Origin: Blepharisma japonicum
Taxonomy: Eukaryota > Ciliophora > Heterotrichea > Heterotrichida > Blepharismidae
Length of the DNA: 64,000 nucleotides
Assembly (NCBI GenBank): GCA_949751835.1
Contig: CATKHK010000006.1
Coordinates: 186,001-250,000 of the forward strand
Direction of reading: 5' to 3'
Part shown: in pieces, positions 18,925-22,983 of the stretch
Numbering within the stretch: the stretch's first letter is position 1
Layout: each line of letters starts with the position of its first letter
Notes under the pieces: model-generated
The model's input: the letters and a program-made list of their open reading frames with translations, nothing else
What the model was told of the DNA's origin: nothing
Database searches by the model: none
Position numbers and translations under genes: made by a program

Positions 18925-20451
18925 TTATAAGCACTCTTCTCCTAACAGCCCATGATATTTAGCAACGCCTTTATTTCTTTCATCAATAACCCATTCAAAT
19001 GAAGTATTATTCAAAATTTCATCAAATAAGCCTGGGTTGTATCCTAATGCATATTCTAATTCAATTATATCTATTAGCATTTTTGAATTCATAGCTGCTT
19101 TTGCTTTTGTGTTAGAAGTGACTCCTGGGTCAAAGTTTGCTTCGATAAATCAGAGCTTCATGTCAGCATCCATGATAAAATCTAGCCCAAATAGCTCAAA
19201 AAGCTGAGGATGTCTGGGAAGCCTATGAAGGGCTGCTCGCATAATGTGGATAATGGCTGATTTCACAGTAGGACGAAATTCTTTTTCTAGCCAATCAGAG
19301 CCAGCGTCGTTGTTTTCGACTAGATAGTCGACAAATTGAAGGTACATTCAGCCTAAATCTTCTAGGGTTTCTGAAATAAGCTCAGTTGTGTAGTTGTTGG
19401 CTTTAAAATAGCCCTTTGCTTGGCCTGTGTTTGTAATGTGCCGCCAACTGTCAGTTGATGTAATATTAAAATCATCAACAGAAATCCTTAAAAATCCATC
19501 GTGGTATAATACCATCAAGGGATCCATACTGGCCACAAACATATATGCTCTGAAATCGAATTTTTTGCCATTTATTAAGTATGGATTGCTGATATATTTT
19601 TGAGCAATTCGACTACTATGAGGGTTACAGCTGCCACTTTTCTCAAAATCTTCCAAAAACATATAAGACAATTTCTTATCTACTATTTTTACCCCAAATC
19701 CTTGGTTACTCTCTTTTGCTTCTTTATAAATCCATTGAAGTTCATTTTGCGATATATTTTCTTTCAGATTTTTCATAAAAAGAGCACACTCTTTTTCATT
19801 ATCCAAAATTAATGTATATGGAGTAAATTCCCACACATCAAAGCATTGTTTTCTACCACTAAACTGCTCAGAGTACTTTACTAAGTCTATAACACTCGCA
19901 TCTTTTGCATCAATAAAAGAATTCCCTGGAATATGATTATACCTCTGCCCAGGACATGCAAAATGTTTCCCAATTTCCATAAACTGATGTGTATTGTATA
20001 CCATATGGAAAAACATCGTAATATTTAAAGGCAGGTGCACAGGTTTATTTTTACGTACATTTGTCAAATAATATTCAGGATACACAACATTGTAATTTTC
20101 TATAAGAATTTTTTTAGTAAAATATCATTTGGGGAAATTCGAATAAATTATCTTGTCCTCATACAGAGGAAGTCCTCTTGAGTCGAGCTTAATAGGGTTA
20201 TTTAGTCTATATTCTTTAACACTATCACAATAATCATCATCTGCAAGGATTTTATGGAAATGAGGTTGATAATCTATGGTGCTTAAATAATATTTTCAAG
20301 CTTCAGATTCATCATAGTTTTTGTGTATGATTTCTTCATAGATTTTCTTTAAAAATGTTTCTTTCGAGATAGGGTGGCTTAAATAGATGCTCAAAATGTT
20401 CAAAAGCAGCAAAACGGATATGAGCGATACAACTACTGTAAATAATTTCAT
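18925..20451 (-). CDS. tubulin-tyrosine-ligase (TTL) family protein with N-terminal signal sequence
   Basis: 508 residues, one exon; TGA at 20296, 20125, 19348 and 19150 read as Trp. The TTL ATP-grasp domain is clear: AQKYISNPYLINGKKFDFRAYMF... region, HDGFLRIS, HITNTGQAKG and FGLDFIMDADMKLWFIEAN with the catalytic Glu. TTL proteins add Tyr, Glu or Gly to tubulin tails or other proteins. The start (MKLFTVVVSLISVLLLLNIL) is a strong signal peptide or anchor, odd for a tubulin-modifying enzyme, so the substrate may be lumenal or secreted, or the catalytic domain membrane-tethered. The frame was extended past the GTG at 20085 to the ATG at 20451. Confidence 0.87.
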
Positions 20452-21177: not shown

Positions 21178-21183
21178 AAAAAA
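21178..21183 (-). terminator. RNA polymerase III terminator of tRNA-Trp
   Basis: Six T residues on the minus strand, one base after the tRNA discriminator. Confidence 0.7.
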
Positions 21184-21184
21184 G

Positions 21185-21257
21185 TGAACCCAGAGCGACT
21201 TGAACGCCCAACCTGCGGATTTGGAGTCCGTTGCACTACCAGTTGTGCTATGGGTCC
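21185..21257 (-). tRNA. tRNA-Trp (anticodon CCA) with a four-base-pair anticodon stem
   Basis: 73 nt. The acceptor GGACCCA pairs with TGGGTTC (one G-U), the D stem GCAC pairs with GTGC, the T stem GGGCG pairs with CGCTC, and the discriminator is A. The anticodon loop is CTCCAAA with CCA. The anticodon stem ACGGA/TCCGC has A27 opposite C43, so only four pairs form. Other eukaryotic tRNA-Trp genes usually have five. Work on Blastocrithidia and Condylostoma linked a four-pair stem in tRNA-Trp(CCA) to reading UGA as Trp. Here UGA is Trp and this tRNA has the same feature. No intron is present. Confidence 0.95.
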
Positions 21258-21507
21258 TGCTTATTTTTCTGTAGTCTTGGCACGAATTTAAAGTCTTAAT
21301 TTCCAATATAAAATACAAAAAGCTCTCCAAATTAGAAAAATTATGTTTCTGTAAAAATGTATGTACCTCTTTGTAAAATCCTTTAATTTTCCACGTTAAT
21401 TTATTTATCTATGAAATTCATATATGTTTTAGGCTTATTAGTATTCAAAGAGTAAATCAGATTAGCTTTATTTAAAATATATTTATATTTTACAAAAAAA
21501 TATTAAT

Positions 21508-22983
21508 ATGATTTTACTTCTTTTCTGTGCACTCGCAGCGGTAGCATCTGCGTGAAATCCAACACTAGGCACTATAAACGGTTATTATAACCTTACAGAA
21601 GTCAATAATCTCTTAGAAGAATGAACCAAAATTCATAATGGTACCGAAACTTTTACAATCGGCAAATCACTAAAAGGCAAAGAAATAAAAGCTTTTCATA
21701 TGAATTTAGGCAAAGGACCGGCTGTTCTTGTTATAGGCTGCCACCATGCCCGTGAGCTGATCTCAACTACTCAAGTACTATCAGTATTGAACTACATATT
21801 GCAAGAAGAATCTGAAGAAATAGATTATATAAGAAAAAACAGAGAAATGATATTTATCCCAGTCTTAAATGTTGATGGGCTACAAAAAATCAGTGAGCAT
21901 TATGATAAAACCCATACAATTTTAGATATAAGGAAAAATCAGAGACCTACAGAAGCTTGCATTGGAGAAGATCATGGAGTGGATTTAAATAGAAATTACG
22001 GATATATGTGGGGATACGACAATGAAGGATCTTCAAACAACTCATGCGGAGAAGACTACAGAGGAATTTCAGCTTTTTCTGAACCAGAAACCATAGCTAT
22101 TAAAGACTTGTTATTAAACAAATCATTTACAGTGGCTGTTTCATATCATAGCTGGGGTGACCTTTATGTGCATCCGTGGTGTTACAGGAATTCATTTAAC
22201 CCTTCTGATTTAAGGCCTGAAGATTGGAGTATTTACAATAGCATAAAAGCTATATTGCCAAGCACTGCTCAATTTGGGAATCCATATCAACTTCTTAACT
22301 ATGCTGTAAATGGCTGCTTTATAGACTTTGCATACTCATTAGGGACATTTAGTATGGCTGTTGAACTTGGGCTTGAAAATGATTTTCACCCGCCAATTAG
22401 CAAAGTTAAAGGAATTCTTGAAAGTCACCTTGCTCCTTTTATGTACTTACTCAAGAATTCAGGCCCAGTTATGAACTTATGGCTTCAAAATCTAACAATT
22501 CATGGCTCAGTTGTGGAGTTTTATTTAGAGATTTACAATCAGGGCATGCAAGACGCCGCAAACCAAACCCTCACATTTGAGCTATCCCACGACTACTCCA
22601 TTCATCATTTCTTCCCTTATAACACTTTCACGCATCACAAAAATGGCAAGCTCACAAATATCCATCTTCCAGCTATCTCTAAGCGTTCCAAACAAGCTAT
22701 AATGTTCAAAATCAGCCTAGACGAGTCTGCGTACGAATTTTTATACAGTTTTTACTTCCAGCCCCACTCCCCTCTTAATGCCCATCTTTCTAGCACGATT
22801 CGGCATAAAATAGTAAGAGGAAGTACTGCAGTTCTCTTATGAATTGTTATTGCCATTATCGCAATTATAGGAGTCTCAGTTGTTGTTGTCTTTAAATTCA
22901 CCAAGAAAAGAATCACCCCAATCAAATTTGTTGAACTTGATAAATTTAACAAAGCCAACAGTCAGGGTGCTCCTACCATTTAA
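21508..22983 (+). CDS. M14 metallocarboxypeptidase with signal peptide and C-terminal membrane anchor
   Basis: 491 residues in one exon; TGA read as Trp three times. A signal peptide (MILLLFCALAAVASA) precedes the peptidase domain. Catalytic features are intact: zinc HxxE in CHHARELIS (His80, Glu83), substrate Arg in DLNRNYGYMWG, zinc His in SYHSWGDLYVHPW, and the catalytic Glu in MAVELGLEND. A beta-sandwich-like region follows, then a membrane helix (WIVIAIIAIIGVSVVVVF) and a short basic tail. It should remove C-terminal residues from peptides outside the cell or in an acidic vacuole while anchored in the membrane. It resembles the secreted M14A group, not the cytosolic tubulin-deglutamylating CCPs. 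Confidence 0.92.

Follow-up and report, generated by a model that had tools for sequence, protein, structure and literature searches.

The locus described here raises the question of how UGA is read as tryptophan in the nuclear genes of Blepharisma japonicum, given that a tRNA-Trp gene with the anticodon CCA carries an anticodon stem of four base pairs. The best explanation, which is considered likely, is that this nuclear tRNA-Trp(CCA) itself reads UGA as Trp, with the release factor eRF1 competing weakly for the codon. The gene lies on contig C6, in a window of 64 kb (the whole stretch of DNA that was analysed).

The tRNA-Trp(CCA) gene and its copies

The features of the gene and of its immediate surroundings are as follows:

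21185..21257, minus strand: tRNA-Trp(CCA), 73 nt, four-pair anticodon stem (ARAGORN, Rfam, fold and sequence)
21222..21224, minus strand: anticodon CCA, positions 34-36 (ARAGORN and sequence)
21231..21231, minus strand: A27, unpaired, top of the anticodon stem (ARAGORN drawing, Rfam)
21215..21215, minus strand: C43, facing A27 (ARAGORN drawing, Rfam)
21286..21292, minus strand: TTTAAAT, a TATA-like element lying 29-35 nt 5' of the gene (by eye)
21178..21183, minus strand: T-run directly 3' of the tRNA, Pol III-type terminator (by eye)

The gene is located at 21184-21257 by ARAGORN and exactly at 21185-21257 by the Rfam model RF00005, in both cases on the minus strand and with an Rfam score of 62.0 bits (cut-off 29). 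In its anticodon stem, ACGGA/TCCGC, positions 28-42, 29-41, 30-40 and 31-39 are paired and A27 stands unpaired opposite C43. The initial annotation had read the four-pair stem from the letters, and this reading is borne out in three ways: ARAGORN draws four pairs, the Rfam alignment marks 27-43 as non-standard and the minimum-energy fold of the bare strand contains four anticodon-stem pairs. This fold (ensemble frequency 0.145, energy z-score -1.83) is not dominant, and the centroid structure departs from it. The annotation was equally right that the anticodon is CCA, not UCA, and that the remaining stems are sound, as ARAGORN and Rfam agree on a tRNA-Trp(CCA) gene whose other three stems (acceptor, D and T) have all their pairs, those at 2-71 and 50-64 being G-U in the ARAGORN structure.

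A DNA search of the whole genome (45,185,585 bases, 45.19 Mb, in 224 contigs), carried out with the gene and its flanks as query, revealed six tRNA-Trp(CCA) loci: the gene at 21185-21257 on C6, one on C14, one on C49 and three on C47. The 73-nt sequence is identical in all six copies, so A27 faces C43 in each of them. It had been asked whether other tRNA-Trp genes keep a normal five-pair stem; none was found in this search, which retrieves close matches and could be escaped by diverged copies. Judged by eye, five or six consecutive T directly follow the 3' end of each of the six copies, and the five copies other than that on C6 have candidate A/T-rich TATA-like elements some 28-35 nt upstream. 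Related to the arrangement of these genes, three of the six fall within about 4 kb (C47:94412-98157), and two of these three have flanks that look similar by eye, which points to local duplication.

The frequency of this type of mismatch was estimated from a sample of 69 tRNA records, corresponding to 27 distinct anticodon arms (Trp is represented by eight records from overlapping loci); the sample derives from the 63 of 2,483 first-look candidates that were scored with Rfam, part of which was used. Two of the 27 arms are mismatched at 27-43, namely A.C in Trp(CCA) and U.U in Ser(CGA), and the Met(CAT) arm has its mismatch at the bottom pair, 31-39. The mismatch at 27-43 is thus unusual in this genome, yet not limited to tRNA-Trp, and its occurrence in Ser(CGA) means that the mismatch alone is no proof of a function at UGA. 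The U.U of tRNA-Ser(CGA) is found in two copies (L076, C2:806294-806375; L077, C100:42178-42259); the Ser(UGA) and Ser(AGA) tRNAs have an ordinary A-U at 27-43.

Tryptophan at UGA codons and the competing release factors

The use of UGA was followed in the 28 non-overlapping ORFs of at least 200 aa present in the 64-kb window, introns being ignored. Their 11,243 codons include 142 for Trp, and UGA accounts for 41 of these; TAA terminates 27 of the ORFs and TAG the remaining one, and 13 have no UGA. Two of the ORFs that do have in-frame UGA could be compared with homologues around these codons:

18925..20451, minus strand: tubulin-tyrosine-ligase-like ORF, four in-frame UGA (homologue alignment)
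21508..22983, plus strand: M14 carboxypeptidase ORF adjoining the tRNA, three in-frame UGA (homologue alignment)

In the ligase-like ORF both aligned UGA codons, 368 and 434, fall on Trp of 5vlq, the best solved homologue. Two placements speak against Trp: UGA 368 lies opposite Met in a second solved homologue, and the sole aligned UGA of the carboxypeptidase, codon 39, is opposite Ala of carboxypeptidase T, and in a kinase ORF all four UGA are beyond the aligned range of the homologue. Outside the window, two eRF1 genes have their aligned UGA codons where the best solved homologue has Trp (1/1 on C29 and 2/2 on C9). It is therefore confirmed that UGA means Trp in the nuclear genes, and UAA, rarely UAG, behaves as the stop.

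Three full-length eRF1 genes are present in the genome:

L038:1456-2763, contig C121, plus strand: eRF1 with KSSNIKS
L039:616-1920, contig C29, minus strand: eRF1 with SATSIKS (N61S)
L040:1453-2748, contig C9, plus strand: eRF1 with SATSIKS (N61S)

By comparison with human eRF1, the C121 protein has KSSNIKS, YICDNKF, Ala70 and Ile126. The copies on C29 and C9 are 68% and 61% identical to it, respectively; the former has YICNNVF and the latter retains Ser70, and Leu126 is replaced by Ile in all three. Similar ORFs near the C29 and C9 genes, noted by eye, suggest a segmental duplication. Two candidates were discarded during this survey. The first is the idea that the C121 gene, which has no UGA codons, is a contaminant, since neighbouring ORFs on the same 10-kb stretch have in-frame UGA. 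The second is the highest PF03463 match (L037, on C4), which by its sequence is presumably Pelota/Dom34-like and not an eRF1.

The initial annotation had proposed that eRF1 be inspected for changes that weaken UGA recognition, and Ala70 and Ile126 are changes at sites said to have this effect; Leu126Ile is said to increase UGA read-through in yeast (PMC4695839). In a table of that paper, KSSNIKS, YICDNKF and Ala70 are printed for the eRF1 of B. americanum, B. japonica and B. musculus. The C121 protein agrees with them in all three features, whereas the SATSIKS copies differ, KSSNIKS being the only form shown there. No literature title on eRF1 paralogues in Blepharisma was found, which is weak evidence of absence; in PMC4967479 the word "paralog" is used twice, for histone H4 and for tRNA-Trp. 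Pairs of NIKS and SIKS eRF1s are listed for Euplotes (PMC4695839). It is conceivable, albeit rather unlikely, that the reading of UGA is shared among the four-pair tRNA-Trp(CCA), tRNA-Sec(UCA) and three eRF1s among which the work is divided. By way of example, one eRF1 might be general while the two SATSIKS copies fail to see UGA, much as in the Euplotes pairs, a division that is likewise doubtful.

Returning to the explanation preferred here, the loss of the top pair would leave the upper end of the anticodon stem unpinned, so that UGA, in the A site of the ribosome, could be taken by CCA as near-cognate, as others have demonstrated for Blastocrithidia and Condylostoma. An eRF1 with Ala70 and Ile126 would compete weakly at this codon, and UGA would be read as Trp. 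Against this, assays cited in PMC4967479 suggest that the eRF1 of B. japonicum still recognises all three stop codons, UGA included, so that tRNA and eRF1 may compete. Decoding of UGA by the four-pair tRNA-Trp(CCA) is plausible. The suggestion of the initial annotation that the same trick is used here is partly supported: the meaning of UGA, the changed eRF1 and the exclusive presence of the four-pair form among the copies found all stand, whereas what the tRNA itself does is inferred.

The chemistry of the mismatch has also to be taken into account. When protonated, an A facing a C can pair by wobble, and the opening of the stem may then be smaller. It also counts against the preferred explanation that A.C is unlike the C.U of Blastocrithidia and Condylostoma or the U.C of Amoebophrya. 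The A.C mismatch could also be neutral, weak eRF1 activity at UGA and ordinary near-cognate reading by tRNA-Trp(CCA) being sufficient; this alternative overlaps with the preferred explanation, as the eRF1 part is common to both. It agrees with Ile126 and Ala70 in eRF1, with the read-through caused by Leu126Ile in yeast (PMC4695839) and with the mismatch that tRNA-Ser(CGA) likewise has at 27-43. Nevertheless, A27.C43 is kept in all six Trp copies found, and the four-pair tRNA-Trp(CCA) recurs in lineages with UGA = Trp while Stentor and Fabrea lack it, according to PMC13092985; neutrality appears improbable. It is highly unlikely that a fraction of the tRNA-Trp(CCA) undergoes editing or modification of C34 and reads UGA in this way. 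In the mitochondria of trypanosomatids, imported tRNA-Trp is subject to C-to-U editing (titles cited in PMC13092985), but in Condylostoma no significant editing was seen by RT-PCR and small-RNA reads, as stated in PMC4967479.

tRNAs with a UCA anticodon

The most direct alternative to a four-pair CCA tRNA is a tRNA-Trp with the anticodon UCA, and the initial annotation had supposed that the organism manages without one. In the nuclear contigs none was seen in the DNA search with gene and flanks, among 47 of 77 B-box pattern matches or by the tRNA-Sec route; a mitochondrial one, however, exists. The two UCA tRNAs found in the genome are a tRNA-Sec on C60 and this mitochondrial tRNA-Trp on C204. 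The C60 tRNA is called tRNA-Trp(tca) by ARAGORN under table 4 and SeC under the standard code, and it is assigned to tRNA-Sec on the strength of 75.6 bits against the Rfam tRNA-Sec model (cut-off 47). The tRNA-Trp(UCA) on C204 (L108:182-252; contig of 14,765 bases) has a complete five-pair anticodon stem, and the same contig encodes COX1 with 12 in-frame TGA, therefore the tRNA is regarded as mitochondrial.

This mitochondrial tRNA could also serve cytosolic ribosomes at UGA, in which case the four-pair stem of the nuclear tRNA would be incidental. Its full stem, the COX1 gene read through 12 TGA beside it and the discussion of such cytosolic use for Condylostoma in PMC4967479 lend it some credit. 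Nonetheless, the tRNA would have to reach cytosolic ribosomes and be charged there in quantity. Moreover, it has G at the discriminator position, where the nuclear tRNA-Trp has A73. A discriminator G is more in keeping with a synthetase of bacterial type than with one of eukaryotic type. For these reasons a cytosolic role is judged highly unlikely.

A diverged nuclear UCA tRNA might, on the other hand, have been missed, given that the search was confined to B-box patterns of canonical form and to sequences closely matching the gene, and that stem scoring left aside the 30 of the 77 pattern matches in which position 60 is a purine. The anticodon and T stems were scored in the other 47 (7 in known loci, 39 in small pieces and 1 mitochondrial), and both were complete (10/10 pairs) in the mitochondrial tRNA only, the next best reaching 8/10. 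Neither B-box pattern is enriched against its reversed control (320 vs 660 matches and 77 vs 120, the latter for the pattern just described), and ARAGORN identified only tRNA-Arg and tRNA-Glu in 30 loci of the first pattern. As the search with gene and flanks also gave the six CCA copies only, an overlooked tRNA of this kind has very little probability.

The presence of tRNA-Sec leads to a side observation. One glutathione peroxidase gene (L089, C59:43700-44500) has a UGA in the context NVACE-UGA-GLT, at what we take to be the catalytic Cys/Sec position, and is the sole UGA carrier of eight such matches. As SepSecS is encoded on C173 and tRNA-Sec on C60, UGA probably also stands for selenocysteine in this gene. 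A search for a SECIS element 3' of the gene gave no Rfam match up to E 5, and the hairpin of the 3' stretch is not clearly above shuffles (z -0.98, 30 of 200 as good). For Condylostoma, tRNA-Sec and selenocysteine in thioredoxin reductase are reported in a legend of PMC4967479. If UGA were both Sec and Trp, the genome would offer a natural example of a single codon to which two tRNAs give two different sense meanings.

Comparison with published Blepharisma and other four-pair tRNAs

The genome shares several traits with those described for the genus. The triple CCCTAACA telomere repeat gives 168 matches in the genome, compared with 0 for the control, and among the matches listed it is placed at contig ends on C4, C5, C6 (the contig of the window) and C17. 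The B. stoltei genome paper gives the same telomere repeat, 41 Mb, 66% AT and UGA = Trp; the telomeres, an AT-rich genome, UGA = Trp and mainly UAA stops are therefore common to both. Together with the C121 eRF1, these traits lend good support, short of proof, to the placement in Blepharisma. UGA makes up 41 of the 11,243 codons in the window ORFs, compared with the 0.059% given for B. japonicum in PMC4967479.

The initial annotation had suggested that this gene would be a clear case of its own. This is not news, since Blepharisma has already been credited with a four-pair tRNA-Trp(CCA) in the literature (PMC13092985, PMC12005148); the finding is real and is already known at genus level. PMC13092985 (2026, citing Swart et al. 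2024) reports four-pair tRNA-Trp(CCA) from the genera Blepharisma and Loxodes and states that Stentor and Fabrea lack it. Compared by description, the published Blepharisma tRNA-Trp and the present one have in common CCA, the four-pair stem and UGA = Trp (PMC13092985, PMC12005148).

The precedent on which the annotation relied, the four-pair tRNA-Trp(CCA) of Blastocrithidia and Condylostoma, is indeed described in PMC13092985, where a C.U mismatch is given for Blastocrithidia nonstop and Condylostoma magnum (Kachale et al. 2023). As in these two organisms, the top pair is lost in the only nuclear form of tRNA-Trp found, UGA is Trp and a cytosolic tRNA-Trp(UCA) was not found, here within the patterns and close matches searched. 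The differences are that the mismatch is A.C instead of C.U, and that UAA and UAG act as stops (27 TAA and 1 TAG in 28 ORFs). The likeness to Amoebophrya sp. ex Karlodinium veneficum, as reported in PMC12005148, lies in the four-pair stem and the proposed reading of UGA as Trp; there, however, only a single copy among the seven tRNA-Trp predicted has the short stem, its unpaired bases being U and C, whereas all six copies have A.C in the Blepharisma genome. Taken at the scale of the genome, the copies described here support the published link in which a ciliate with UGA = Trp has a short anticodon stem, and not a new UCA anticodon.
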